Source: Achromobacter spanius
GTDB lineage: Bacteria > Pseudomonadota > Gammaproteobacteria > Burkholderiales > Burkholderiaceae_B
Direction of reading: 5' to 3'
NCBI RefSeq assembly: GCF_029637605.1
Contig: NZ_CP121261.1
Coordinates: 3,534,001 to 3,598,000, forward strand
DNA length: 64,000 bases
Shown piece by piece: positions 41,410-55,422 of this stretch (its first letter is position 1; the number at the start of each line of letters is the position of its first letter). The position numbers were made by a program, and so were the translations under genes. The notes under the pieces were generated by a model. The model was not told the origin of the DNA. It was given only the letters and a program-made list of their open reading frames with translations, and searched no databases.

Positions 41410-41458
41410 CGCAAGATTTTAAAAAGCGCGGCGCATCGATCTAGAAGGGACACCAGGA

Positions 41459-42946
41459 TTACTGATGATCCAGCATCCTCTCGGGGGCAGCGCGAACATC
41501 CCACTGCCCCGCCAACAACCTCGTTGCCAATTCGCCGATACGCCTCAGCGCTGATTTCCGCACATGATCCAAGGGACCCGAAATACTGATTCGTACACAA
41601 TTCCGGTAGGCCCGCGTAGCGCTGAAAATGGAGCCCGGGGCGATCAGAATCCCTTCGTCCAGACACAAGGCAAACAGCCTCTGCGCATCCAGCCCCCGCG
41701 GAAGCTCTATCCATAGGGCCGAACCACCATTCGGGTCCGTCACACACGTGCCAACGGGAAATGATGCACTGATTACCTTGCATGCTTCGCCAATATGCCC
41801 GCGGTTTGCTCTATGCAAGCGTCGAATATGGCGACCATATTGCGACTCCGCCAGTAGCTCCGCCAACGCCAACTCATTGATCGGGCAGTTTCCCACCGAC
41901 ATGGCTGACTTAACACGACGAATCTCGCCACCGAACCGGCCGGGGTGCAGCCAGCCCACGCGTAGCGCGGGCGAAACAGTCTTGGAATATGAGTTGCACA
42001 ACAGTATCCATCCGTCATGATCAAACGACTTCACCGCACGGCGACTGCTTTCGTCATTGACCAAATCGTTATAGACCGCATCCTCGACCATCGGAATCTT
42101 GTTCTCGCGCAATAACTCCTCCAGACGCTTGCGCTCCGTCAGAGGCATGCATGCACCCGTCGGGTTGGAAAGCGTCGGTGCCGACAGAACCGCATCCACC
42201 TTGCCCTGCAGCACCGCCTGCTTCAGCGCATCAACCGACATTCCGTATCGAGGATGCGTCGGAATCTCAAGGCAGCGTAGATTCAGAATTTCCAGGATTC
42301 GCAGAAAGCCGAAGGAAGTTGGGGATTCCAACGCAACGGTGTTCCCGGGTTCCAGCAAGGCTGACAAACACAGCGTGATCGATTCGGTCGTGCCGCTGGT
42401 GATGATCAAGTCCTGAGGGTTAAACGCACACCCTAACGAAAGCGCTCGAAGCGCCACCATCCGACGCAATTCGGTCGCCCCTGCTGCACATGGAGAGCGG
42501 CCAACTGCCCCAGCGCTTCGCGGTACCGCACGCAGCAGCGCCCGCTCGATCGCGCTGGTCTGCACCGGGTCCAATGTGGGATATCCGGTAGCAAACGAAA
42601 TCAACGCCGGGTCTTGCGCGCGCCCCATCACCATATCAATCAGTTCCGCCATTTCAACGCCAGAGACCAAATTGGGAGGCATGTTGACGCGTGACTCGAC
42701 GGCGCTACGCGCGGACCTCACCACGAAGTGGCCTGCCTGAGGACGCGTTTCGATCAAACCTGAATCTTCCAGTATTCGATAAGCCTCGAGCACGGTCGAT
42801 AGAGAGACGCCTTGCTGCTTCGCACACAGTCGCAACGATGGCAGCCTGTCTCCCAGCGCATAGACGCCGAACCCGATAGCGTCTTCCAACTGTGCCGCCA
42901 CCTTCCGATACAGCGGCACGCCAAATCCTCCTTGCCTGCTCCGCAT
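41459..42946 (-). CDS. MocR-type regulator of the chorismate/TrpB2 cluster
   Basis: 495 residues from the ATG at 42946 (alternatives: 42988; the most upstream, 43174, would overlap the divergent gene's start). The N-terminal GntR winged helix (YRKVAAQLEDAIGFGVYALG, VSLSTVLEAYRILEDSGLIE) is fused to a class I aminotransferase-like domain with Schiff-base Lys in NSYSKTVSPALRVGW and a preceding DAVYNDL. MocR proteins commonly regulate a divergent operon and can sense a PLP-amino-acid adduct. Here the divergent operon ends in a PLP enzyme, so the product or its PLP aldimine is an attractive effector (inference). Codon use is less G+C-rich than in flanking genes. Confidence 0.88.
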   Translation of the reverse strand: MRSRQGGFGVPLYRKVAAQLEDAIGFGVYALGDRLPSLRLCAKQQGVSLSTVLEAYRILEDSGLIETRPQAGHFVVRSARSAVESRVNMPPNLVSGVEMAELIDMVMGRAQDPALISFATGYPTLDPVQTSAIERALLRAVPRSAGAVGRSPCAAGATELRRMVALRALSLGCAFNPQDLIITSGTTESITLCLSALLEPGNTVALESPTSFGFLRILEILNLRCLEIPTHPRYGMSVDALKQAVLQGKVDAVLSAPTLSNPTGACMPLTERKRLEELLRENKIPMVEDAVYNDLVNDESSRRAVKSFDHDGWILLCNSYSKTVSPALRVGWLHPGRFGGEIRRVKSAMSVGNCPINELALAELLAESQYGRHIRRLHRANRGHIGEACKVISASFPVGTCVTDPNGGSALWIELPRGLDAQRLFALCLDEGILIAPGSIFSATRAYRNCVRISISGPLDHVRKSALRRIGELATRLLAGQWDVRAAPERMLDHQ

Positions 42947-43018
42947 GATCCTGGCCCCCCGGTTGTATGGCAGCACAAATGGCGTCATAACTTCGTATGC
43001 GAAAGCGCGAATCTGACT

Positions 43019-43051
43019 TTTGTATCGGTCGAGTTTAGCGGTATTTGTATC
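43019..43051. promoter_or_regulatory. Candidate MocR operator: direct repeats TTTGTATC
   Basis: In the 178-base divergent gap, TTTGTATC occurs at 43019-43026 and 43044-43051, 25 bases start to start. A related TTGTATGG is at 42963-42970. MocR regulators such as GabR bind pairs of direct repeats in divergent promoters, so this is a natural binding site candidate; binding is not shown. Confidence 0.45.
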
Positions 43052-43124
43052 TACCCAGATTGCCACCGGATCACCGATGATTTCTTCCAGCTCAGCAGCA
43101 TGAAGCATGGAGAAATAACAAGTC

Positions 43125-44585
43125 ATGACAAGCGTTCGCATAGAGACAATCGAGCTTTCGAAATCCGACGACATTGAGCCATTCTCGGTATACCGAAATG
43201 CTATCGATATGCTTGGAAGGCATCACGCATTTCTCGCCGAATCGGTAAGCGGTCCCGAGTTGGACTGCCAGCAATCGGTGGTCGCGATTCATCGCATAGC
43301 ATCCATCTGTTTTCGCTCGACATCTGCAAACCTTCATGCAGAACCAGACGCCTGGCTGTGTATCCAGCAGGCAATTGCAGCCGTTCCTGGGCTCTTTTCG
43401 TTCAACGCTTCGGGCGACATATCCTTTGCGTGTACTGAAGACCTATGGGACTTCCTGGGTGCGTTGCTCGAGTCAACTTTCAATGTCAGCAGTGAATCGA
43501 CCGAATTTCATCCGGGCTTCATTGTGCGCTTGGGCTACGACGCTGCAGCCTTGAACGAGAAGTCGGCACACGCAGTTTCCCCAGAAGATCCCATCCTCAT
43601 ACGGCTCGACCTATATCAGAATTTCGTAGTTTTCCGAGAGCGCGGCATTCAATTTCACGCATGTCATTTCCCGGGGCTGAAGAAGCCAGACATCGGGAGC
43701 TTAAGACGACTATGCGAACCCGCCCCCCCATTACCCCACTTGACCCCAAATGCCACAGAAATCACATTCTCAAGCACCCGAGAAGATTACTTGGAGCAGT
43801 GCCACACCGCGCTAGAGCACATCGCCCGCGGCGACATCTACCAAGTGCAACTGGGGCATGAAGTCCGAGTCAAATGCAATATTGATCCGGTATCCCTATA
43901 CGCCAGCTTGCGCGAACAAAATCCCGCGCCTTACATGTTTCTTCATCAGTGTGAGGACATGACTTTGGTAGGTGCCAGCCCCGAGAGCTATGTGCGCGTC
44001 GAAGGGGGATGCGTATCAATGCGACCCATTGCGGGAACCCTTGCGAAGTCGCTTGCACTGACCGAGGCAACCCTTCGCAGCGAGCTTTCCGATTCGATTA
44101 AGGAAAACGCCGAACACGTCATGCTGGTTGACCTTTGCCGCAACGACATCGGAAAAATCTGTGAGCCCAACTCGCTCGACGTTCCTTCCTTCATGGCATT
44201 GGAGGCCTATCCGTCGTTGTATCACCTGGTGTCCTCCGTACAGGGCGCCTTAAAAAGCGAATGCAACGTCGTTGCTGTCCTGCGAGCTACATTCCCGGCC
44301 GGAACCATGGTCGGCGCGCCCAAGATTAGAGCCATGCAGATCATTGAAAAGCTGGAGGGCTCTCCCCGCGGGCAGTATGCGGGCGCGTTAGGGCTGATTG
44401 GTTTCGACGGATCCATCAATATGGCTTTATGCATTCGGATGGTTACCCAGACTGACGGCATTTATCGACTGCGCGCCAGCGCGGGAATCGTCTCGGACTC
44501 GAACCCCGAACGAGAATGGCTTGAGACGCTGGCCAAAATGCGGGTGATGCATCGGTGCTTGACCGGTGAGGAGTTGCTCGCATGA
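43125..44585 (+). CDS. Anthranilate/ADIC synthase component I-like, chorismate-binding enzyme
   Basis: 486 residues. The C-terminal 260 form the chorismate-binding fold: REDYLEQCHTALEHIARGDI, GASPESYVRVEGG, MRPIAGT, LSDSIKENAEHVMLVDLCRN, FPAGTMVGAPKIRAMQIIE and GYxG-like YAGALGLI. The key residue in MRPIAGT is Ala303; PabB-type aminodeoxychorismate synthases usually have Lys there (PIKGT). So the amino group likely goes to C2, giving anthranilate or 2-amino-2-deoxyisochorismate. N-terminal FLAES resembles the tryptophan-binding LLES loop but is altered. Uses ammonia from the amidotransferase encoded next (ATGA overlap, 44582-44585). Confidence 0.85.
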   Translation: MTSVRIETIELSKSDDIEPFSVYRNAIDMLGRHHAFLAESVSGPELDCQQSVVAIHRIASICFRSTSANLHAEPDAWLCIQQAIAAVPGLFSFNASGDISFACTEDLWDFLGALLESTFNVSSESTEFHPGFIVRLGYDAAALNEKSAHAVSPEDPILIRLDLYQNFVVFRERGIQFHACHFPGLKKPDIGSLRRLCEPAPPLPHLTPNATEITFSSTREDYLEQCHTALEHIARGDIYQVQLGHEVRVKCNIDPVSLYASLREQNPAPYMFLHQCEDMTLVGASPESYVRVEGGCVSMRPIAGTLAKSLALTEATLRSELSDSIKENAEHVMLVDLCRNDIGKICEPNSLDVPSFMALEAYPSLYHLVSSVQGALKSECNVVAVLRATFPAGTMVGAPKIRAMQIIEKLEGSPRGQYAGALGLIGFDGSINMALCIRMVTQTDGIYRLRASAGIVSDSNPEREWLETLAKMRVMHRCLTGEELLA

Positions 44586-45166
44586 ACGTACTTCTAGTGG
44601 ATGCTTACGACAGCTTTGTATATCTGATCGATCATCACCTGCGATCTCTCGGACTTCTAACTCGGGTAATACGCTGCGATGACCCCGCACTGAACGAAGC
44701 TCTGCTTTACTCTCCCGCGTTCGTTGTCTTAGGCCCCGGCCCCGGGCGGCCAGAGAAGGCGCGGTATCCAGAGTTGGTTCGAGCCGCGGCCGGCCGCGTG
44801 CCAATACTCGGCGTCTGCCTGGGTCATCAAGGCATCGCACAAGCCTACGGCTGCAACATCGTCCAAGCCGTGACCTGCATGCACGGCAAGACCAGCAGCA
44901 TCGTTCACGACAACCAGGGCGTATTCGGCGAACTGACAGACACGCCCTTTTTAGCCACTCGATATCACTCATTGGTGGTAGATCCCCGGAGCGTTCCCCC
45001 TTCACTTCAGGTCAGCGCTCACGCAGCCGACGACGGACACATCATGGGGCTAAGGCATAAAAGCCTTCCGGTAGAGGGTGTGCAGTTTCATCCCGAGAGC
45101 ATCTGCACTCAGCACGGCGCCTCGATATTCACAGGTTTCATCCGCCGTCATGTGAAGACGATCTAA
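44582..45166 (+). CDS. Glutamine amidotransferase (TrpG/PabA type), component II
   Basis: 194 residues, the usual size of a stand-alone TrpG/PabA. Catalytic Cys79 sits in ILGVCLGHQG, oxyanion GPGPG at 51-55 and the His/Glu of VQFHPES near the C-terminus. It supplies ammonia from glutamine to the component I subunit. Start overlaps the previous stop. A primary tryptophan or folate amidotransferase is elsewhere in such genomes, so this looks like a dedicated pair. Confidence 0.92.
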   Translation: MNVLLVDAYDSFVYLIDHHLRSLGLLTRVIRCDDPALNEALLYSPAFVVLGPGPGRPEKARYPELVRAAAGRVPILGVCLGHQGIAQAYGCNIVQAVTCMHGKTSSIVHDNQGVFGELTDTPFLATRYHSLVVDPRSVPPSLQVSAHAADDGHIMGLRHKSLPVEGVQFHPESICTQHGASIFTGFIRRHVKTI

Positions 45167-45192
45167 GCACGATTACATAAAGGGGCATACCT

Positions 45193-45534
45193 ATGAATTC
45201 ACCGAGATACGACGCTGTTTCATTTAGCACCGAACGCGCTGCATGGACCACTTGGTCAAAGCCGGGCGCTGATGGGCGGGTCAAGACGTTCTACTCCAAC
45301 GGAAAGCGGCTCAGGCTATTGGAATTGCCCCCCGGGTTTGACGAGGAAAAGTGGTGCCTTGTCGGCCATCAGGGATACGTCTTTGAAGGGCGCTTCACGA
45401 TCATCTTCGAGGACGGCACCTTTGATTGCCAGCCAGGCGACGCGTTTTCCATTCCAGACGGCGTACGCCACCGATCCAGAGGGTCCATGGACGGTCCCAC
45501 TCGCGTATTCGTCGTGGACAATCACCAAAGCTGA
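45193..45534 (+). CDS. Small single-domain cupin
   Basis: 113 residues; cupin strands YVFEGRFTIIFEDGTF and PGDAFSIPDGVRHRSRG. Motif 2 (PGDxxxxPxxxxH) is intact. The first cupin motif, where metal-binding His residues usually lie, reads GHQGYVFEG and is only partial. It may be an isomerase, a ligand-binding chaperone or a metal-poor structural cupin. It sits between the amidotransferase and the UbiD-family gene, with 26 and two bases of spacing. BacB, a bicupin isomerase in bacilysin synthesis, is a reminder that small cupins act on chorismate-derived quinoids; homology is not claimed. Confidence 0.75.
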   Translation: MNSPRYDAVSFSTERAAWTTWSKPGADGRVKTFYSNGKRLRLLELPPGFDEEKWCLVGHQGYVFEGRFTIIFEDGTFDCQPGDAFSIPDGVRHRSRGSMDGPTRVFVVDNHQS

Positions 45535-45536
45535 CC

Positions 45537-46973
45537 ATGCCGCACACCACAAGCCTGACGCCTGGCTTGCGGACCTCCGCGAGGCGCCTGCACACGTCGC
45601 TGCGCGACGCCCTAAGTGACTATCGTGCTCGCGGATTCGCCGTTCGCGAGGCCGACGTCGGACTACGTCCAAATCTGGAGATCGCCGGGCATTACCGAAC
45701 GCAGTTCGCCACCGTGCCAGGTAGCTCCAAAAGCGGCGACGAGCCCGTGGTCCTATACCAAACGAAAAATGGCGATTTCCCAGTATTGTTGGGATTATTT
45801 GGATCCCGGGAGCGCAATGAATGGTTGCTAGGGGCACGCGCCAGAGAAGGGGCGCACACGCTGATGCGCGCTGCGCTATCCAGACCGCTCCGCCCCTCTT
45901 GGGTCGCGAACCCGCCCTGCCGGGAGCAGCAGGCGCCTGATCGCTTGGCCGCGCTACCCACGCTCACCAGCACAAGCCAAGACGCAGGCTCCTTTATTAC
46001 GTCGGGCCTTGTCTGCGCGGGAGAACCCAACAGCGGATTTGTCAGTCTGTCAATTCATCGGATGCGAGTTCTGGATGATGGGCATCTGACAATTTGGATA
46101 CTTCCGGGCCGAGATCTCGATCACCTATATCGACAGGCGGCAAAGGCCGGACGCGCATTGCCGCTTTCCATAAATATTGGGGTGCCCCCCGTGGTGTACC
46201 TGACATCGTCACTGAGTTCACCACTCGTTGCCCCAGGTGGCGGCGAACTGGAAACCGCTGGCGTCTTGCTGGGGCGCCCCGTGGAAATAGCTCGGTGTGC
46301 CACGAATAGCGCGTTTTGCCTGGCGCAAAGCGAGATCGTTATTGAGGCTTCGCTGCTTCAGCAGACCGTCGCTGAAAGTTCAGGCAGCGGGTCAGATTTC
46401 AGCATGCCGGAGTTTCTTGGCTACATGGGAAAAGCGCAGGACAACTTGCCGGTCGTCCGCGTTTCCGGCGTTTTCCATCGACGCAACGCGATTTACCAGA
46501 CATTCATTGGCCCTGGAAAAGAACAATCAGAGCTACTGGCGCTTGCGTCGGAAGCCGCAATATTGATGCACTTGAACCGCGTCGCTGAACCCCATTTGCG
46601 CGTAAAGGATGCGCATTATTTGGCTGCGGGCGGCGGCCAATTATTGTTGGTTCTTCAAGTTGAAAAGCGGCTTGACCATCCGGAATCCATGCCTCGATTG
46701 CGCGACGCCGTCATGCAATCGCATGCCTTGTCCAAAGGAATAATCGTTGTGGATGAAGACGTGAACATCCATTCGCCAGAAGACGTTTTTTGGGCACTGG
46801 CAACGCGATTCCAGCCTAGCGTCGACCTGTACGTGAGCTCAGGGGCCGCCGGTTTTTCGTTGGACCCGTCTCAGGCAGCAGGTTACTTACACGCAACAAA
46901 CCCCGTCACCGACAAGTACCTGATGGACCTCACCGTTCCCTGCCACCTTCGCCCCCAGTTTGTCCGAACCTGA
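45537..46973 (+). CDS. UbiD-family (prenylated-FMN) decarboxylase
   Basis: 478 residues from the ATG two bases after the cupin stop. UbiD-family features: LRDALSDYRARG start, NIGVPPVVYLTSSLSSPLVA, ETAGVLLGRPVEIARC, IVIEASLLQQTV, then GVFHRRNAIYQTFIGPGKEQ and ASEAAILMHL. UbiD enzymes reversibly decarboxylate aromatic or alpha,beta-unsaturated acids with prFMN made by UbiX. Compared with the usual IVIEGE...EGPFGE-TGYY pattern, the catalytic-region segment here is divergent (MPEFLGYMGKAQDN), so substrate or even activity may be unusual. No ubiX gene is in the window. Confidence 0.85.
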   Translation: MPHTTSLTPGLRTSARRLHTSLRDALSDYRARGFAVREADVGLRPNLEIAGHYRTQFATVPGSSKSGDEPVVLYQTKNGDFPVLLGLFGSRERNEWLLGARAREGAHTLMRAALSRPLRPSWVANPPCREQQAPDRLAALPTLTSTSQDAGSFITSGLVCAGEPNSGFVSLSIHRMRVLDDGHLTIWILPGRDLDHLYRQAAKAGRALPLSINIGVPPVVYLTSSLSSPLVAPGGGELETAGVLLGRPVEIARCATNSAFCLAQSEIVIEASLLQQTVAESSGSGSDFSMPEFLGYMGKAQDNLPVVRVSGVFHRRNAIYQTFIGPGKEQSELLALASEAAILMHLNRVAEPHLRVKDAHYLAAGGGQLLLVLQVEKRLDHPESMPRLRDAVMQSHALSKGIIVVDEDVNIHSPEDVFWALATRFQPSVDLYVSSGAAGFSLDPSQAAGYLHATNPVTDKYLMDLTVPCHLRPQFVRT

Positions 46974-47016
46974 AGAGCGAACAACGGGCGTCACAACACC
47001 AAAGCGAGCACTGGCA

Positions 47017-47703
47017 ATGTCCCTTTCCTTACCGAAATTCGTCATTCTGACCGGCTCAGAGCGAGCCCATGGAAACACCGACCAGATTGCTGCCTACATC
47101 AACGCCCTGCTGGACGGAATGGACTGCGCGACTGACGTTATCCATCTCCGAGAACATCACATTTTGCCTTGCGGCAGCTGCGGCGAGTGCAACATGCGCG
47201 CCAGCGCATGCCACATCGACGACGACATGCCGCTCGTCATTTCACGGCTGAGACAGGCGGACGGCATCGTATATGCAGCCCCCGTTCACGGCTACGGCAT
47301 GGCCCATCCCATGCAGATCTTTATTGAACGTGCAGGCGTGGGTTACCTACGTTTCGAACGCCCGCTGGCCAACAAGGTGGCCGGAGCAGTCGTTACGGGA
47401 AGAAGGTATTCACATGAAGCGGTCGCCGCCCAGTTGATCAACAACATCCTGTTGAATCGAATGATTCTTGTCGGGAGCGGGTATCCCGCCATCGTCCATG
47501 GGGGATCGCCGGGAGCCGCGCTGCATGACAAAGAAGGCCTGGAGTCGATTCGCATGTTGATCGCCCGCATGGCGGGAATGGTCAACCTGATGCGCAGCTT
47601 GTCTCCCGAGGCCATTGTCCGGCATCTCAGCCCCGACACCAGCAACGAGCGCCATACGGGAAGCAGCCTTCCCTCTCATTATCAATCCGTACTTTTGGAG
47701 TGA
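47017..47703 (+). CDS. Iron-sulfur flavoprotein / NADPH-dependent FMN reductase-like
   Basis: 228 residues from ATG 47017; a TTG at 46960 overlapping the UbiD gene is a weaker start. Flavodoxin-like FMN loop at GSERAHGNTDQIA. Compact cysteine motif C52-x2-C55-x2-C58-x6-C65 matches the 4Fe-4S site of iron-sulfur flavoproteins. AAPVHGYGMAHPMQIFIERA is the second flavin-contact segment. It could reduce a pathway intermediate (for example a quinoid or imine) or donate electrons to another enzyme. It is not a UbiX: the fold and motif differ. Confidence 0.82.
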   Translation: MSLSLPKFVILTGSERAHGNTDQIAAYINALLDGMDCATDVIHLREHHILPCGSCGECNMRASACHIDDDMPLVISRLRQADGIVYAAPVHGYGMAHPMQIFIERAGVGYLRFERPLANKVAGAVVTGRRYSHEAVAAQLINNILLNRMILVGSGYPAIVHGGSPGAALHDKEGLESIRMLIARMAGMVNLMRSLSPEAIVRHLSPDTSNERHTGSSLPSHYQSVLLE

Positions 47704-47709
47704 CTACTC

Positions 47710-47997
47710 ATGCAAGCGTCAGAACCATTGCGTCAAATACGGGCACAGATAGATCAAATCGACGATCAGCTTGTTCCGCTACTCGCAAAGCGCATCAGGC
47801 TCGCTTTAGAGGCATCCGAACACAAAAACACCGATGATGAGATTCGCGGATGCGATCGCGTGCAGGAGGTGCTTGAGGGTGTGAAGTTACGTGCGCGAAA
47901 GGAGGGCGGAGCGGTCGACTCCATTTTGGCCATCTACACCTTTCTCGTTCAGGAGCTCACCACCCTGCAACTTCGAGCTAAGGCAGGTCAATCATGA
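47710..47997 (+). CDS. AroQ-type chorismate mutase homologue
   Basis: 95 residues, all helical. AroQ residues line up: Arg in LRQIRAQIDQID, Arg in LLAKRIRLA, Lys in SEHKNTD, Arg in CDRVQEVL and Gln in FLVQELTTLQ. The enzyme family performs the [3,3] rearrangement of chorismate to prephenate; relatives rearrange 4-amino-4-deoxychorismate (PapB) or cleave isochorismate (PchB). In this operon an aminated chorismate or isochorismate derivative is a plausible substrate. ATG follows TTGGAGTG after the flavoprotein; its stop overlaps the start of the B3/4 gene (ATGA, 47994). Confidence 0.85.
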   Translation: MQASEPLRQIRAQIDQIDDQLVPLLAKRIRLALEASEHKNTDDEIRGCDRVQEVLEGVKLRARKEGGAVDSILAIYTFLVQELTTLQLRAKAGQS

Positions 47998-48755
47998 TCG
48001 CCCAGTTTTCCTATGAAAGGCGCTTGGTCGACGACTATCCCAACCTTCGTTGCATGGTCGCTTTTATTGGCGGGATATCGATTGATGCGGACTTTGACGA
48101 CATCGTCAGAGCGAACCTGGATCAGGCTCGGGGCATGCTCACGCAATACGAATCCGAGAGCCGGATTCCATCCATCCAGCAATGGAGACAGGCATATCGT
48201 CGAAACGGCACGGATCCCACGAAATTTCGGATGGCCGCCGAGTCCATTCTGCGTCGACTACGCACGAGTGACGCATTCACGTCGGAACTCCATCCCTTCG
48301 TTGTCCTTTGTAATTCATTATCAGCAATGCATGCCTTGCCGGTCGCTGCACTTGATGCGGATTGCATCGACGGGAATCTGAAAGTGGGATATGCATCTGG
48401 TCACACGCACTATCTAGGATTCGACGGCGAAACCATCGTTGTCCCAAAGGGCGAAATCACTTTCGAGGACGATGCCGGGCAAGCACACGCCCGGCGATGG
48501 TCACACAGGCAAAGTGCCTTTTCCTCGATTTCCGAGCGCACGCAGCGAGCGCTCGTCATTGCCGAAGCCTTGCACGACTCAGCCGAACTCGATCTAGGCC
48601 GCTTGTTGGACAACCTGACCGACGCCGTTGCAAGCCGATGGCCCTCCGGAACGGTGTCAGGAAGATTGCTATCCCAGCAAGACCTCGTCGCTGGATGTCG
48701 CTCACCCTTTCTAGCGCGGCTAGTTTCCTATCCAGATATGGAGGTTATGAAATGA
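47994..48755 (+). CDS. Free-standing B3/4-domain protein (PheRS beta editing-domain homologue)
   Basis: 253 residues. The central and C-terminal parts show the B3/4 pattern: IPSIQQWRQAYRRNGTDPTK, FRMAAESILRRL, FVVLCNSLSAMHALPVAALD and IVVPKGEITFEDDAGQAHAR with RWSHRQS. In bacterial phenylalanyl-tRNA synthetase the B3/4 domain hydrolyses Tyr-tRNA(Phe) and related mischarged products. No synthetase part is present. Start and stop overlap the chorismate mutase and TrpB2 genes (ATGA at 47994 and 48752), so it belongs to the pathway. The simplest idea is trans-editing of tRNA charged with the product. Confidence 0.82.
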   Translation: MIAQFSYERRLVDDYPNLRCMVAFIGGISIDADFDDIVRANLDQARGMLTQYESESRIPSIQQWRQAYRRNGTDPTKFRMAAESILRRLRTSDAFTSELHPFVVLCNSLSAMHALPVAALDADCIDGNLKVGYASGHTHYLGFDGETIVVPKGEITFEDDAGQAHARRWSHRQSAFSSISERTQRALVIAEALHDSAELDLGRLLDNLTDAVASRWPSGTVSGRLLSQQDLVAGCRSPFLARLVSYPDMEVMK

Positions 48756-50113
48756 CCACAGTGACGCGGTTTCTCTTGGACGAATCTCGCATCCCGACGA
48801 CCTGGTACAACCTGGCGGCCGACCTACCGACTCCCGTTCCGCCATTACTGCACCCAAAGACGTACGCGCCCATACAGCCGTCCGATTTGGAGCACCTTTT
48901 CGCTCCTGAAATCATCCGTCAGGAAATGTCGCTCGAACGCCATATTCCCATCCCTGACGCCGTGCGGGACGTCTATCGCTTGTGGCGTCCCTCGCCGTTG
49001 ATGCGCGCACACCGGCTTGAACAGGCGCTGGGAACTACGGCGCGCATCTACTACAAGTACGAAGGAGCATCGCCTTCGGGATCTCACAAACCAAACTCAG
49101 CCATCCCACAAGCCTGGTACAACAAGCAGGCTGGGATTCGAAAACTTGCCACGGAAACAGGCGCGGGGCAATGGGGCGCATCATTGGCATTTGCTGGCCA
49201 ACTGTTCGGTCTGGAGGTCATGATTTATCAAGTTCGCGTGTCCTACGACCAAAAGCCCTATCGTCGCGCGCTCATGGAAACGTACGGCGCGACATGCGTG
49301 GCATCGCCGTCGTCGGGCACCGAAATCGGGCGTTCCGTACTCTCGCGCACCCCCGATCACCCAGGTTCGCTCGGCATTGCCATCTCGGAAGCTGTCGAGA
49401 CGGTTCTAGCCTCGCCCGATACTCGCTACGCGTTGGGATCCGTTATGAACCACGTGCTGTTGCACCAGACAGTCATCGGGCAAGAGGCATTGCAGCAGAT
49501 GGAAATGGCAGGGGACGATCCTGACATCATCATCGGATGCGCCGGAGGTGGGTCGAACTTTGCCGGCATTGCATTTCCCTTTATTGGTCAACAAATGCGG
49601 GGCGGGCGCTCGCGTCGTTATATAGCAGTCGAACCCGCAGCGTGCCCAACATTGACGCAAGGGCGATACGCATACGACTTCGGAGACACAGCAGGCATCA
49701 CACCACTTGCCAAAATGCACACGCTGGGCTCCAGCTTCACGCCGCCTGGGCTGCACGCCGGCGGCCTTCGCTACCACGGCATGGCCCCCATGGTGTCGCA
49801 CCTTGTTGAACTAGGTTTGATTCAGCCCCAGGCCGTGCAACAGATACCGTGCTTTTCAGCTGGCCAGCTTTTTGCGCGTTGCGAGGGGATTCTGCCCGCG
49901 CCCGAATCAAACCATGCCATCGCTGCGGCCATCCAAGAGGCGTTAAGGTGCAAACGTGATGGCACACGCGATGTCATTCTGTTCAACCTGTCCGGCCATG
50001 GACATTTCGACATGACGGCGTATCAGAGCTATATGACTGATAAGTTGGTAGACCTGTCACACGATGAACATGCATTGAACGAAGCGCTATCAGCCCTTCC
50101 TGTTGCTGGCTGA
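48752..50113 (+). CDS. TrpB2-type tryptophan synthase beta-like PLP enzyme
   Basis: 453 residues, longer than TrpB1 (about 400) and the usual size for TrpB2. PLP-binding Lys113 is in GASPSGSHKPNSA; the catalytic Glu135 in ATETGAGQWG; the phosphate loop in IIIGCAGGGSNFAGI. TrpB2 forms an aminoacrylate from Ser or O-phosphoserine and adds a nucleophile, classically indole. No trpA, trpC or trpF accompanies it, so the nucleophile is probably another aromatic made by this cluster. Starts by ATGA overlap with the B3/4 gene. Convergent with the LysE gene. Confidence 0.88.
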   Translation: MTTVTRFLLDESRIPTTWYNLAADLPTPVPPLLHPKTYAPIQPSDLEHLFAPEIIRQEMSLERHIPIPDAVRDVYRLWRPSPLMRAHRLEQALGTTARIYYKYEGASPSGSHKPNSAIPQAWYNKQAGIRKLATETGAGQWGASLAFAGQLFGLEVMIYQVRVSYDQKPYRRALMETYGATCVASPSSGTEIGRSVLSRTPDHPGSLGIAISEAVETVLASPDTRYALGSVMNHVLLHQTVIGQEALQQMEMAGDDPDIIIGCAGGGSNFAGIAFPFIGQQMRGGRSRRYIAVEPAACPTLTQGRYAYDFGDTAGITPLAKMHTLGSSFTPPGLHAGGLRYHGMAPMVSHLVELGLIQPQAVQQIPCFSAGQLFARCEGILPAPESNHAIAAAIQEALRCKRDGTRDVILFNLSGHGHFDMTAYQSYMTDKLVDLSHDEHALNEALSALPVAG

Positions 50114-50124
50114 CCAATGCATAC

Positions 50125-50146
50125 CGCGGGGCTCGACAGCCCCGTG
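50125..50146. terminator. Hairpin between the TrpB2-like and LysE genes
   Basis: Stem CGGGGCT-CGAC-AGCCCCG (50127-50144), extended by one more pair, between the convergent stops at 50113 and 50150. No good T-tract follows on either strand, so it is a plausible bidirectional terminator with moderate strength. Confidence 0.5.
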
Positions 50147-50149
50147 CGG

Positions 50150-50785
50150 TTAATCAATCCGGCTGCGGCGGTATAGCGTCATCGCCGCGGCCAAACCCGC
50201 CAACACCGCCGCGCAACTGCGGTTAAGCCATCTAAGAGCCCCACCCGACAATACTCGCACCGCATGATAGCCGCCGATCGCATACAGGCTCATCAAGGCA
50301 ATGTCGATGATCGCGGTGAGGAGCGCGAAGGTGATGTACTGAGTCGCTACGCTAAAGCCGGTTTGAATGAATTGCGGCAAGAAGGCGGAGAAAAACAGCA
50401 ACCCTTTGGGGTTTGACAACGCAACCAGCAACGAACGCAGAAATGCGGATCGACCGCTACGTGGAATGACCGCATCCGTCGAGGCTGAGGCGACAAGCGC
50501 GGTAGGGGCTCGCCACAAGCTCCAGGCCAGATACAAAAGGTAGAGTGCCCCAATCCATTTCACCACCTCAAAGAGCAGCGTGGATGCCTGCAGAATAGCG
50601 CCCAGGCCCAATCCCACAGCACCAATCAGGATCAGGTCGGACAATGCCGCGCCGAGCATGCCGCAGGCAGCTAGCCGGAAGCCTCCCGTAGCCCCGTTAC
50701 TCAACGCGAGCAATGTCGTGGGCCCCGGAATGATGGTGACGGCCGATACTGCGACCACATACAAAAAAATAGTTGTTGTATCCAT
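50150..50785 (-). CDS. LysE/RhtB-family amino-acid exporter
   Basis: 211 residues from ATG 50785 and six predicted membrane helices. PGPTTLLALSNGATGGFRLA with the PGP near the N-terminus, and LSNPKGLLFFSAFLPQFI, are family hallmarks. An alternative upstream start (50917) adds residues from IclR-coding DNA. LysE/RhtB proteins expel amino acids and derivatives such as Lys, Thr and homoserine lactone. It converges on the TrpB2-like gene and is less G+C-rich than the adjacent IclR gene, so it probably belongs to the island and may export its product (inference). Confidence 0.88.
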   Translation of the reverse strand: MDTTTIFLYVVAVSAVTIIPGPTTLLALSNGATGGFRLAACGMLGAALSDLILIGAVGLGLGAILQASTLLFEVVKWIGALYLLYLAWSLWRAPTALVASASTDAVIPRSGRSAFLRSLLVALSNPKGLLFFSAFLPQFIQTGFSVATQYITFALLTAIIDIALMSLYAIGGYHAVRVLSGGALRWLNRSCAAVLAGLAAAMTLYRRSRID

Positions 50786-50894
50786 GCCGGTTTCCAAGAA
50801 ATACACGTGCGCGCCATGCGATGCGTGCGGCAAGGATAACTTTTGCTTGGCAATCTGTCCGCAAGACCTGGCATTCTTTGCGCTGACGCGGCGA

Positions 50895-51797
50895 CTACTG
50901 GCTGCCCTCTCCCACATACCCCAGCGCCGCGCTGGCCGCCGCGGCTTCTTTTTTCACCGCCGCCACGATCTTGCCGTTCGCCGACACATCGAAACCACCC
51001 GTCGCGCCCAGCGCCGTCAGCACCGCGCAGGGGCGGCCGGTGTGGTCGTACAAGGGCGCCGACACCGCGCTGATGCCGCGCAGGTTCGTGTCTTTCACCG
51101 TGGCGCAACCTGCCGCGCGCACCTGGCGCCGCAGCCCGCCGATGGGATCGTCGCGATCCAGCAAGGCACGCAGGTCGTCAGGCGACTCGGCCAGTTCGGC
51201 CAGCGCCATCTGCTGAATCGGCGCTTCGTCCAAGGCCCCCAGAAACGCGCGGCCGGTGGCGGACCACAGCATCGACAGCACCGAGCCCACGCGCACGTTC
51301 ACCGTGACGGGCAACGCCGGTTCCTCGAAGCGAACAATGGTCGGCCCCTTGTTGCCCATGACGGCGATAAAGCACGTGACGGCCAAGCTCTCACGCAGGC
51401 GTATCAGCACCGGTTCGCTGATGCGCAAGGGGTCGGCCTGGCGCATCGCGGCCACGCCGACCATCAGCGCTTCCAGGCCCAGGTGGTACTGCTGGGTAGC
51501 CACTTCCTGGTCCACCAGCCCCTCGGCAATCAGGCTCATCAGGTAGCGGTGCACCTTGGCGGGGCTTTCGTCCACGTGCGCGGCCAGCGCGGTCAGGCTG
51601 GCACGGCCGCCCAAGCGGGCCAGCCCTTTCAGCACCACCATGCCGGTTTCTGCGGCCTGCACCCGTTGGCGGCGTTCGCGCGGGCGGGCGGCGGATTCCT
51701 CGTCGGGATCCGGGGCGGACGCTTTGGTGGTCGCTTTATTTGGCGACTTCGTGGACGCCTTGGTGGGCGTCCGGGTCGACGGCTTGGGGGGGCTCAT
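50895..51797 (-). CDS. IclR-family transcriptional regulator
   Basis: 300 residues from ATG 51797; a Pro/Lys/Thr/Ser-rich N-terminal tail of about 45 residues precedes a winged helix (ASLTALAAHVDESPAKVHRY, LMSLIAEGLV) and the GAF-like IclR effector domain (VLSMLWSATGRAFLGAL; GISAVSAPLYDHTGRPCAVL). The tail is longer than usual. Divergent from the Bug gene at 51950, with a palindrome in the gap that is the likely operator. Likely regulates the Bug and P450 genes. Confidence 0.88.
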   Translation of the reverse strand: MSPPKPSTRTPTKASTKSPNKATTKASAPDPDEESAARPRERRQRVQAAETGMVVLKGLARLGGRASLTALAAHVDESPAKVHRYLMSLIAEGLVDQEVATQQYHLGLEALMVGVAAMRQADPLRISEPVLIRLRESLAVTCFIAVMGNKGPTIVRFEEPALPVTVNVRVGSVLSMLWSATGRAFLGALDEAPIQQMALAELAESPDDLRALLDRDDPIGGLRRQVRAAGCATVKDTNLRGISAVSAPLYDHTGRPCAVLTALGATGGFDVSANGKIVAAVKKEAAAASAALGYVGEGSQ

Positions 51798-53043: not shown

Positions 53044-53070
53044 ATGCATCACGAATACACGGAAAGCATC

Positions 53071-55422
53071 ATGAGCCAATCGCCCTCTTCCTCGCGCCCG
53101 TCGGGCTGTCCCATCGATCACGCGGCGCTTGCCGCGATGCAAAGCCCCACCGGCTGCCCCGTCAGCCCCCGCGCGGCCGAGTTCGACCCCTTTGGCGATG
53201 GCTACCAGCAAGACCCGCCTGAATACGTGCGCTGGGCGCGCGAGCAGGAACCCGTGTTCTACAGTCCCAAGCTGGGCTACTGGGTGGTCACGCGCTACGA
53301 AGACATCAAGGCGATTTTTCGCGACAACATCACCTTCAGCCCGTCCATCGCGCTGGAAAAAATCACCCCCACCGGCCCCGAGGCCAACGCCGTGCTGGAG
53401 TCGTACGGCTACGCCATGAACCGCACGCTGGTCAACGAAGACGAACCCGCCCACATGCCGCGCCGCCGCGTGCTGATGGACCCGTTCACGCCGGAAGAGT
53501 TGAAGCACCACGAGCCCATGGTGCGCCGCCTGACCCGCGAGTACGTCGACCGCTTCGTCAACGACGGCCGCGCCGATCTCGTCGACCAGATGCTGTGGGA
53601 AGTGCCGCTGACCGTCGCGCTGCATTTCCTGGGCGTACCCGAAGAAGACATGGAGCTGCTGCGCCAATATTCCATCGCGCACACCGTCAACACCTGGGGC
53701 CGCCCCAAGCCCGAAGAGCAAGTGGCCGTGGCGCATGCCGTGGGCAACTTCTGGCAGTTGGCCGGCAAGATCCTGGACAAGATGCGCCAGGACCCGTCCG
53801 GCCCCGGCTGGATGCAATACGGCCTGCGCAAGCAGCAGACGCATCCCGATGTCGTCACCGATTCCTACCTGCATTCCATGATGATGGCCGGCATCGTCGC
53901 CGCCCACGAAACCACCGCCAACGCATCGGCCAATGCCATCAAGCTGCTGCTGCAACACCCCGACGCCTGGCGCGAAATCTGCGAAGACCCCGACCTGATT
54001 CCCAACGCCGTCGAAGAATGCCTGCGCCATAACGGCTCGGTCGCCGCGTGGCGCCGCCTGGCGACGCGCGACGTCGAGATCGCCGGTGTACCGATCCCGG
54101 CAGGCTCCAAGCTGCTGATCGTCACGTCGTCCGCCAACCACGACGAAGGCCAATTCAACGACGCCGACCTCTTCGACATCCGCCGCGAAAACGCCAGCGA
54201 CCAACTCACCTTCGGCTACGGCTCGCACCAATGCATGGGCAAGAACCTGGCCCGCATGGAAATGCAGATCTTCCTGGAAGAACTCACACGCCGCCTGCCG
54301 CATATGAAACTGTCGGAACAGGCGTTTTCCTACGTGCCCAATACCTCGTTTCGGGGGCCGGAGCATCTGTGGGTGGAGTGGGATCCGAAGCAGAACCCGG
54401 AACTTGCATCACCGGCATTGCTGAACGACCAGCACCCCGTGCGCATCGGCGAACCTTCGTCGCACGCCATCACCCGCCCCGTCGTCGTGCAAAGCACGGT
54501 CGAAGCCGCTGACGGCATCCTGCGCCTGCGTTTGGTGTCGCCCGATGGCAAGCCGCTGCCGCGCTGGACGCCGGGCTCGCATATTGATGTGGAATGCGGC
54601 GACACGGGCTTGTCGCGCCAATATTCCTTGTGCGGCGATCCTTCGGAGACCGGTGTATTTGAAATTGCCGTATTGAAGGAAACAGAAGGCCGAGGCGGTT
54701 CCGCATGGATGCACGCCAACGCGACACCCGGCGCGCGCCTGCGCATCCGTGGGCCGCGCAATCACTTCCGCATGAACGAAGCGGCCGACAAACTGATCTT
54801 GATTGCCGGCGGCATCGGCATTACCCCCATCAGCGCCATGGCGCGGCGTGCCAAGGAACTGGGCCTGGATTACCAACTGCATTACAGCGGCCGCGCGCGC
54901 ACGTGCATGGCGATGCTGGACGAACTTACGGCGTTGCACGGCGACCGCCTGCATGCCCACGTCAAAGACGAAGGCACCCGCGCGGATTACGCGGCGCTGT
55001 TGTCCCAGCCGGATGCCGGCACGCAGATCTATGCGTGCGGTCCGCAAGGCTTGCTGGATGGCTTGTCCGCATGCTGCGCCGCGTGGCCCGAAGATGCGCT
55101 GCGCGTGGAACACTTCCATTCCACCTTGGGCACGCTGGACCCGTCCAAGGAACAGCCGTTTGAAGTCGTGCTGAAGGACTCGGGCATCGTCATCAACGTC
55201 CCGGCAGATCAGACCCTGTTGACCGCGCTGCGCGGTGCCAATATCGACGTGCAAAGCGACTGCGAGGAAGGCCTCTGCGGATCGTGCGAGGTGCGCGTGC
55301 TGGAAGGGAATATCGACCACCGCGACGTCGTGCTGACGCGCGCGGAACGTGACGCGAACAACAAGATGATGGCCTGCTGCTCGCGCTCGTGCGGCGGTGG
55401 GAAAGTGGTGTTGGAGTTGTGA
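53071..55422 (+). CDS. Self-sufficient cytochrome P450-reductase fusion (CYP116B-like)
   Basis: 783 residues from ATG 53071. Residues 1-440 are a P450: I-helix GIVAAHETTANASANAI, haem loop FGYGSHQCMGKNLA with ligand Cys388, and EECLRHNGSVAAWRRLATRD. Residues 460-690 are a phthalate-dioxygenase-reductase-like FMN/NADH unit (SRQYSLCGDP; GGIGITPISAM; YACGPQGLLDG). The last 90 residues hold a 2Fe-2S ferredoxin domain (CEEGLCGSCEVRVLEG and the later MMACCSRS). This order, P450-FMN-2Fe2S, is CYP116B. Such enzymes hydroxylate or dealkylate small aromatics using NAD(P)H without partners. Follows the Bug gene and precedes a strong terminator. Confidence 0.95.
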   Translation: MSQSPSSSRPSGCPIDHAALAAMQSPTGCPVSPRAAEFDPFGDGYQQDPPEYVRWAREQEPVFYSPKLGYWVVTRYEDIKAIFRDNITFSPSIALEKITPTGPEANAVLESYGYAMNRTLVNEDEPAHMPRRRVLMDPFTPEELKHHEPMVRRLTREYVDRFVNDGRADLVDQMLWEVPLTVALHFLGVPEEDMELLRQYSIAHTVNTWGRPKPEEQVAVAHAVGNFWQLAGKILDKMRQDPSGPGWMQYGLRKQQTHPDVVTDSYLHSMMMAGIVAAHETTANASANAIKLLLQHPDAWREICEDPDLIPNAVEECLRHNGSVAAWRRLATRDVEIAGVPIPAGSKLLIVTSSANHDEGQFNDADLFDIRRENASDQLTFGYGSHQCMGKNLARMEMQIFLEELTRRLPHMKLSEQAFSYVPNTSFRGPEHLWVEWDPKQNPELASPALLNDQHPVRIGEPSSHAITRPVVVQSTVEAADGILRLRLVSPDGKPLPRWTPGSHIDVECGDTGLSRQYSLCGDPSETGVFEIAVLKETEGRGGSAWMHANATPGARLRIRGPRNHFRMNEAADKLILIAGGIGITPISAMARRAKELGLDYQLHYSGRARTCMAMLDELTALHGDRLHAHVKDEGTRADYAALLSQPDAGTQIYACGPQGLLDGLSACCAAWPEDALRVEHFHSTLGTLDPSKEQPFEVVLKDSGIVINVPADQTLLTALRGANIDVQSDCEEGLCGSCEVRVLEGNIDHRDVVLTRAERDANNKMMACCSRSCGGGKVVLEL

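Follow-up and report, generated by a model that had tools for sequence, protein, structure and literature searches.

A rare, conserved operon in Achromobacter spanius predicted to lead from an SgcD-SgcG-type chorismate module to a TrpB-joined amino acid

In the biosynthesis of the enediyne antibiotic C-1027, SgcD makes 2-amino-2-deoxyisochorismate (ADIC) from chorismate without loss of pyruvate, and SgcG, which carries flavin mononucleotide (FMN) and an iron-sulfur cluster, dehydrogenates ADIC to 3-O-enolpyruvoylanthranilate (OPA) (PMC10098953). For benzoxazolinate, the same source proposes a cassette that comprises a synthase, a dehydrogenase and an acyl-AMP ligase; the enolpyruvyl carbons of OPA are retained in the product (PMC10098953). 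ADIC can also be taken to 3-hydroxyanthranilate by the route of PhzE, PhzD and 2,3-dihydro-3-hydroxyanthranilate (DHHA) dehydrogenase, as in paulomycin, tilivalline and caboxamycin (PMC8097395). Here we analyze an operon of Achromobacter spanius within a window of 64,000 nucleotides (contig NZ_CP121261.1, forward-strand positions 3,534,001 to 3,598,000, assembly GCF_029637605.1; positions below count from the first letter of this window). Our reading is that this probably acquired operon would convert chorismate via ADIC and OPA to 2-aminophenol, which a TrpB-type enzyme would join to serine, and that the tryptophan-like product would be exported and edited from tRNA; we put its probability at roughly 45%.

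Eight tightly packed plus-strand genes (43125 to 50113) encode, in order, a TrpE-like protein, a TrpG-type glutaminase, a cupin, a UbiD decarboxylase, an iron-sulfur flavoprotein (ISF), an AroQ-fold protein, a B3/4 protein and a TrpB2, and lie between divergent MocR and convergent LysE genes. A preliminary description, drawn from the sequence alone, had named a domain for each of the ten products, and every one was recovered in place with a Pfam score above the cut-off. The close spacing it reported, mostly ATGA overlaps or short gaps, is also present: adjacent genes overlap by 4 bases at the TrpE/TrpG, AroQ/B3/4 and B3/4/TrpB2 junctions and are separated by 2 (cupin-UbiD), 6 (ISF-AroQ), 26 (TrpG-cupin) and 43 bases (UbiD-ISF, given an ISF start at ATG 47017). 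We found no account of these genes together in the open-licence literature, in agreement with the preliminary description, and they do co-occur in other genomes.

The set is genuine, and it is conserved in other genomes. Two exact peptide patterns taken from a UbiD alignment were scanned over a species-genome collection, an approach that misses relatives lacking these peptides, and returned five loci, four of which contain the core. Herbaspirillum sp. ASV7 has ten of the ten genes at 52-74% identity with their order kept (its LysE gene is on the opposite strand). The Mixta theicola cluster is rearranged, with ISF-TrpE-TrpG on one strand, cupin-TrpB-UbiD-AroQ-B3/4 on the other and no MocR match. 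In Ruminiclostridium hungatei and an Actinomycetes metagenome-assembled genome (MAG), TrpG and TrpE are fused and accompanied by ISF, cupin, UbiD and AroQ, but TrpB and B3/4 are absent, and the fifth locus, on a Pantoea edessiphila plasmid, holds UbiD alone. A sixth cluster, in genome G833, likewise has the core and lacks TrpB and B3/4. TrpE/G, ISF, cupin, UbiD and AroQ therefore occur together in all six examined loci that hold this cupin and UbiD, while TrpB and B3/4 are both missing from three of the six. The UbiD gene directly precedes AroQ in four of these loci, with ISF alone between them in the other two.

Several clusters differ in their accessory genes. An NAD(P)H-oxidoreductase-like flavoprotein is an extra component of the three that lack TrpB; it scores below curated cut-offs and would suit an oxidizable aminophenol. 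The Ruminiclostridium clusters (L005, L019) contain, besides proteins of this kind, UbiX, a second TrpG-TrpE fusion, and phenylacetate-CoA-ligase-like and ketopantoate-reductase-like proteins, and nitrogenase-like genes lie just upstream of the R. hungatei cluster (L005 3352-6041; the second recognized by eye). In the Mixta cluster, the LysE homologue (L004 7612-8237) matches in two overlapping frames and may be split.

Since the ISF is an SgcG homologue and the TrpE-like protein resembles SgcD, the first two steps very likely correspond to a known module. The ISF (47017..47703, plus strand), a predicted ADIC dehydrogenase rather than a generic redox partner, is 47% identical to SgcG of C-1027 over 215 aligned positions. 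When plasmids were searched with the ISF protein, 56 records matched; the 16 top-ranked rows came from Streptomyces alone (47-52% identity), and five of these, including the plasmid of the C-1027 producer, are annotated as SgcG. Six cluster ISFs aligned with five Streptomyces and Pseudomonas plasmid copies share the pattern ERxGxGxxR...RPLxxK...R[RK]Y...Q...N...LNxMI and, except for one residue missing in the Pseudomonas copy, a cysteine cluster; C52, C55, C58 and C65 are invariant across five cluster copies. Pseudomonas plasmids account for 23 of the records that match the ISF. One conjugative Pseudomonas syringae plasmid (L040, NZ_CP032632.1, 4719-12463) carries an SgcG-like gene, TrpE/TrpG, a phenylacetate-CoA-ligase family gene, an iron-containing redox enzyme and an EamA transporter, and resembles a benzoxazolinate-type cluster.

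The TrpE-like protein (43125..44585, plus strand; PF00425), a predicted SgcD-type ADIC synthase subunit, aligns with SgcD from end to end (38% identity over 489 positions, 298 bits), and with Escherichia coli TrpE mainly in the C-terminal part (35% over 296 positions, 172 bits). It is followed by the glutaminase subunit (44582..45166, plus strand; PF00117), which scores 190 bits against the TIGR00566 cut-off of 121 and has the motifs GVCLGHQ and VQFHPES; in C-1027 the corresponding order is sgcG, ligase gene, sgcD, trpG. Two further chorismate-binding proteins are encoded elsewhere in this genome. Synthesis of 4-amino-4-deoxychorismate, as by PabB, is disfavored by an RPIAGT motif in place of the lysine motif expected for that chemistry. 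In a tree of 16 TrpE-family proteins, the window and Herbaspirillum copies join that of the P. syringae plasmid (support 87/92). The tree also counts against our assignment in that the cluster TrpE proteins form no resolved clade with SgcD, and its deep forks are open and its branches long. The SgcD-type assignment is therefore drawn from sequence similarity and from the presence of the ISF as partner. We consider it very likely that the pathway starts with amination of chorismate at C2 by TrpE and TrpG, predicted to give ADIC, and continues with dehydrogenation by the ISF, predicted to give OPA.

Beyond OPA the operon appears to leave the described route. A Pfam scan found no benzoxazolinate-type acyl-AMP ligase among the ten genes, and blastp (E 1e-5) found no homologue of the window-type cupin, UbiD, AroQ, TrpB or B3/4 in the 18-25 kb around five SgcG homologues. 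The terms 'chorismate mutase' and 'decarboxylase' are absent from the main text of PMC10098953, which describes genome mining by the ligase, so clusters such as this one would be missed.

The third step in our reading, and its weakest, would remove the enolpyruvyl group of OPA to give 3-hydroxyanthranilate and pyruvate, through AroQ, the cupin or both. The AroQ-fold protein (47710..47997, plus strand; PF01817), a candidate depyruvylase of OPA (or ADIC), had been called a mutase, and it proves nearer to PchB, an isochorismate-pyruvate lyase: when a profile of five cluster copies was compared with the PDB, the five best sequences were all versions of PchB (E 3e-11 to 5e-9), ahead of the best chorismate mutases (6al9, E 2e-8; the E. 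coli enzyme 1ecm, E 1e-7). All five copies keep R11, R28, K39, R50 and Q87, whose PchB equivalents hold the two carboxylates and the ether. At the positions equivalent to D48 and E52 of E. coli chorismate mutase, the cluster proteins have glycine or alanine, and valine, respectively. The invariant residues would fit an enolpyruvyl ether with two carboxylates, that is, ADIC or OPA, and their retention suggests that AroQ acts before decarboxylation.

The other candidate enolpyruvyl ether hydrolase is the small single-domain cupin (45193..45534, plus strand; PF07883). It is the best conserved core protein, at 54-69% identity to the window copy (the other compared core proteins are lower), and its AlphaFold2 model (mean predicted local distance difference test score 94.7) has generic small cupins as best Foldseek matches. 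A role like that of KdgF was considered and is not specially supported, as other small cupins rank above KdgF.

Several observations weigh against this third step as we draw it. The lead of PchB over the chorismate mutases is moderate (46.7 versus 37.4 bits), and AroQ falls far under the isochorismate lyase cut-off (PRK07075, 45.1 versus 126 bits). The substrate on which PchB breaks a ring C-O bond is not aromatic, and we know of no precedent for depyruvylation of aromatic OPA by a PchB-like protein. The cupin has no special likeness to KdgF, which stands in the fifth row of the profile search (E 0.015) and at rank 44 by fold. AroQ and the cupin, both putative enzymes here, compete for pyruvate removal, the weakest link of the pathway.

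Decarboxylation of 3-hydroxyanthranilate to 2-aminophenol would fall to UbiD (45537..46973, plus strand), whose domains PF01977, PF20696 and PF20695 all score above their cut-offs and whose R175, E270 and E280 are invariant in an alignment of 24 sequences. Its prenylated FMN (prFMN) cofactor could come from the flavin prenyltransferase UbiX encoded elsewhere in this genome. On the other side, UbiD scores under the TIGR00148 cut-off (203.5 versus 244.85 bits), and the sequence does not reveal its substrate. Three described routes were compared and set aside. The paulomycin-type path to 3-hydroxyanthranilate involves an isochorismatase, and there is none among the ten genes (PMC4802897, PMC8097395). 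The anaerobic benzoxazole pathway of closoxazole, an idea that came from Ruminiclostridium, draws on aspartate semialdehyde and dihydroxyacetone phosphate and not on chorismate, according to PMC12118335. For stravidin and amiclenomycin, the available text of PMC13336041 names chorismate metabolism once and includes none of the enzyme terms sought.

The nearness of AroQ to PchB, with the conserved active-site residues kept, can also be read without OPA. AroQ might act on ADIC itself to give anthranilate and pyruvate, UbiD would then form aniline, and TrpB would add aniline to serine, giving for example 4-aminophenylalanine or N-phenyl-2,3-diaminopropionate. The chemistry of PchB would transfer directly, with ADIC in place of isochorismate, and the gene order, in which UbiD and AroQ are adjacent or separated only by ISF, is agreeable to this route. 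However, it leaves the SgcG-like dehydrogenase and the cupin idle, though both are present in all six core loci, and it would divide ADIC between two enzymes; we regard it as unlikely, though it survives better than the other alternatives.

If the AroQ fold (PF01817) were instead taken as evidence of a mutase, ADIC could be rearranged to a C5-pyruvyl dihydroaromatic compound, aromatized by the ISF, decarboxylated by UbiD to 4-aminophenylpyruvate and converted by a general transaminase to 4-aminophenylalanine, which TrpB would modify further. This scheme finds a step for every core enzyme but the cupin. It is poorly compatible with the closer relationship of AroQ to PchB, and it would be a detour, since 4-aminophenylalanine has a three-gene route, papABC; it also makes TrpB superfluous, yet two kinds of TrpB fill its place, and we think it improbable. 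We are equally doubtful that the enolpyruvyl group is kept. OPA is the last intermediate backed by homology, and its enolpyruvyl carbons are retained in benzoxazolinate formation as described in PMC10098953. In this reading UbiD would decarboxylate OPA directly, the nucleophile for TrpB would be 2-(enolpyruvyloxy)aniline or a benzoxazinone formed by ring closure, and AroQ and the cupin would tailor the product later. Yet the ten genes lack the acyl-AMP ligase, the ring-closing enzyme proposed for benzoxazolinate pathways, and the two-carboxylate residues of AroQ suggest an action before, not after, decarboxylation.

In our preferred reading, which proceeds through 3-hydroxyanthranilate to 2-aminophenol, TrpB2 would add the arylamine to a serine-derived aminoacrylate. 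This pyridoxal 5'-phosphate (PLP) enzyme (48752..50113, plus strand), predicted to join an arylamine with serine or phosphoserine, passes both NF009057 (724 bits, cut-off 366) and TIGR01415 (621 bits, cut-off 519), with 6hul as best PDB match (E 2.7e-138). Of trpA, trpC, trpD and trpF, the Pfam scan detected none in the ten genes, and the genome has another, canonical TrpB outside the cluster, which upholds the view of the preliminary description that this is not tryptophan synthesis. Its placing of TrpB2 in the set holds for the window and Herbaspirillum but is not a fixed trait, as the Mixta cluster has a TrpB of canonical type (TIGR00263, 544 versus 392 bits; another canonical TrpB lies elsewhere in that genome) and half of the clusters have none. 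Positions equivalent to K87, the PLP lysine, and E109 are kept in both types. Because two TrpB types occupy one role, we infer that the pathway includes the TrpB reaction. Salmonella TrpB accepts 2-aminophenol, turning it over slowly to a new amino acid (PMC9512447). Against this stand the small number of TrpB-bearing loci seen in context (three) and the TrpB-like genes that R. hungatei and the MAG have outside their clusters. The earlier chorismate-to-amino-acid scheme survives in outline, in that a TrpB-type enzyme would attach an aminated and probably decarboxylated ring to serine, while the Claisen rearrangement it allowed for is no longer the default.

The B3/4 protein (47994..48755, plus strand; PF03483) was listed in the preliminary description without a role, and is probably a self-protection factor, a predicted trans-editing aminoacyl-tRNA deacylase. 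Its profile best matches CtdA (9f7e, E 7.6e-16) and 9mkl (E 1.5e-14) in the PDB, and then, weakly, the beta subunit of phenylalanyl-tRNA synthetase (E 0.0087). CtdA is a stand-alone canavanyl-tRNA(Arg) deacylase that protects bacteria which meet or use canavanine (PMC10018355). B3/4 is present in all three clusters with TrpB and in none of the three without it, and searches of the whole R. hungatei and MAG genomes gave no match to this B3/4 profile. Among the listed matches from the self-resistance and trans-editing literature, nothing concerned B3/4. A point on the other side is that three B3/4 relatives in other Burkholderiales (41-46% identical) have no other window-type gene within 3.6-kb stretches. 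One B3/4 relative outside the gene set (L011 593-2163) directly follows what appears by eye to be an EamA-type transporter gene, a hint that a link to amino-acid export may extend to further B3/4 proteins. In our pathway, B3/4 would clear the product from mischarged tRNA by hydrolysis, LysE would carry it out of the cell and MocR would control the operon. That TrpB2 and B3/4 are instead unrelated passengers, and the product a secreted aminophenol or aminobenzoate such as the clusters without TrpB may make, would suit the three of six loci whose core stands without them, but the two genes overlap in the operon and B3/4 accompanies TrpB in three of three cases, across two TrpB types, making this the least probable reading.

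Ruminiclostridium hungatei is an obligate anaerobe, and the presence of the core in it suggests that the core probably needs no oxygen. We tentatively propose, at rather less than even odds, an oxygen-independent conversion of OPA to 2-aminophenol, onto which TrpB has been recruited at least twice to make a tryptophan antimetabolite, with a trans-editing enzyme as the immunity gene. No such logic, combining oxygen-independent OPA chemistry, 2-aminophenol and TrpB, was found in the open-licence literature.

The cluster is rare. Searches of 43 genomes of the genus and of a sample of 398 from the phylum each found its cupin gene in a single genome, the present one; counting the query genome, the cupin profile matched one of 247 genomes in Mixta's order, one of 36 in the MAG's class and two of 291 in that of R. 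hungatei. Plasmid searches with B3/4, cupin and UbiD revealed no second cluster among the matches listed, which reached at most ~42% identity for B3/4, 30% in a single record for the cupin and 38% for the best UbiD. As a wider proxy for co-occurrence, we used exact agreement in the size of the longest contig across three protein searches, taking in UbiD relatives P0001-P0042 and cupins P0241-P0292 only. Among the best 39 of 120 listed B3/4 relatives (the window's included), 30 were on contigs of at least 5 kb, and 23 of these matched the contig of a UbiD or cupin relative in exact size while seven did not. The next 80 relatives (one of 81 had no size) included 25 on contigs of at least 5 kb, none matching; one shorter B3/4 contig (1,984 bases) matched in size, probably by chance. 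Close cupin relatives (P0293-P0340, ~50-60% identity) occur in Streptomyces, Micromonospora, Catenulispora, Paenibacillus and Bradyrhizobium and may include further pathway variants.

Horizontal acquisition of the operon is likely. In 1-kb windows, GC content is 52-60% across the cluster and 61-68% on either side; its genes individually have 53-58%, against a mean of 63% for the whole window. The left-flanking sensor-kinase gene was used as a DNA query against 43 genomes of the genus, and twelve loci, the window's own included, were compared. In the two closest relatives, whose kinases are 93-94% identical to that of the window, the kinase lies ~0.8 kb from the right-hand flank, compared with 9.5 kb in the window, and because of this spacing the cluster looks like an insertion or replacement. 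The right flank had no match in the other nine fetched kinase stretches, which are uninformative on insertion, and the relatives' spacer showed no long match in the window. In both nearest relatives (L026, L027) the spacer at this site (window positions 41410-50900) holds one nucleosidase-like open reading frame of ~250 codons, recognized by eye.

The genes that frame the operon are both on the minus strand. The MocR-type regulator (41459..42946; GntR and aminotransferase-fold domains, PF00392 and PF00155) lies in a reading frame open to 43174; comparison by eye with the 55%-identical Herbaspirillum MocR places its start probably at 42946, which leaves a divergent region of 178 bp (42947..43124) as the probable promoter/operator between MocR and the TrpE-like gene. 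An 8-bp direct repeat, TTTGTATC, occurs there at 43019 and 43044, although a two-copy 8-mer could arise by chance. The LysE-type exporter (50150..50785; PF01810) is 63% identical to LysE of the Herbaspirillum cluster. Farther downstream, positions 53044-55422 encode a 792-residue protein that by eye resembles a fusion of a cytochrome P450 with a flavin/ferredoxin reductase.

If our reading is true, OPA has another fate besides benzoxazolinate, UbiD and a PchB-like protein gain new substrates, and the reaction of TrpB with 2-aminophenol, known as an enzymologists' probe, is used by nature itself. Trans-editing immunity genes would then offer a handle on hidden clusters for amino-acid antimetabolites, in the form of stand-alone editing genes inside operons. 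Single purified enzymes suffice to assay the proposed steps, which are thus directly testable.

Compared with known systems, the operon shares TrpE/TrpG and an FMN- and iron-sulfur-dependent dehydrogenase with the SgcD-SgcG module of C-1027 and other benzoxazolinate or benzobactin clusters, but has cupin, UbiD, AroQ, TrpB and B3/4 in place of the acyl-AMP ligase. Like the PchA/PchB salicylate pathway, it pairs a synthase that binds chorismate with an AroQ-fold protein, here one whose nearest relative is PchB, whereas it has amination in place of hydroxylation and adds the SgcG-like dehydrogenase and UbiD. The PhzE/PhzD/DHHA dehydrogenase route would share the conversion of ADIC to 3-hydroxyanthranilate; the ten window genes, however, include neither an isochorismatase nor an NAD-dependent DHHA dehydrogenase (Pfam scan), and oxidation and pyruvate removal would come in the reverse order. 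TrpB2 passes the same NF009057 and TIGR01415 models as the TrpB2 tryptophan synthases but is found in a cluster without trpA, trpC, trpD or trpF and apart from the genome's canonical trpB. B3/4 resembles CtdA, its best PDB match, in being a stand-alone protein, and differs in sitting within a predicted biosynthetic operon. We therefore propose that the known OPA module serves as the base of this pathway, to which a TrpB/2-aminophenol step and a trans-editing gene would be the new additions.

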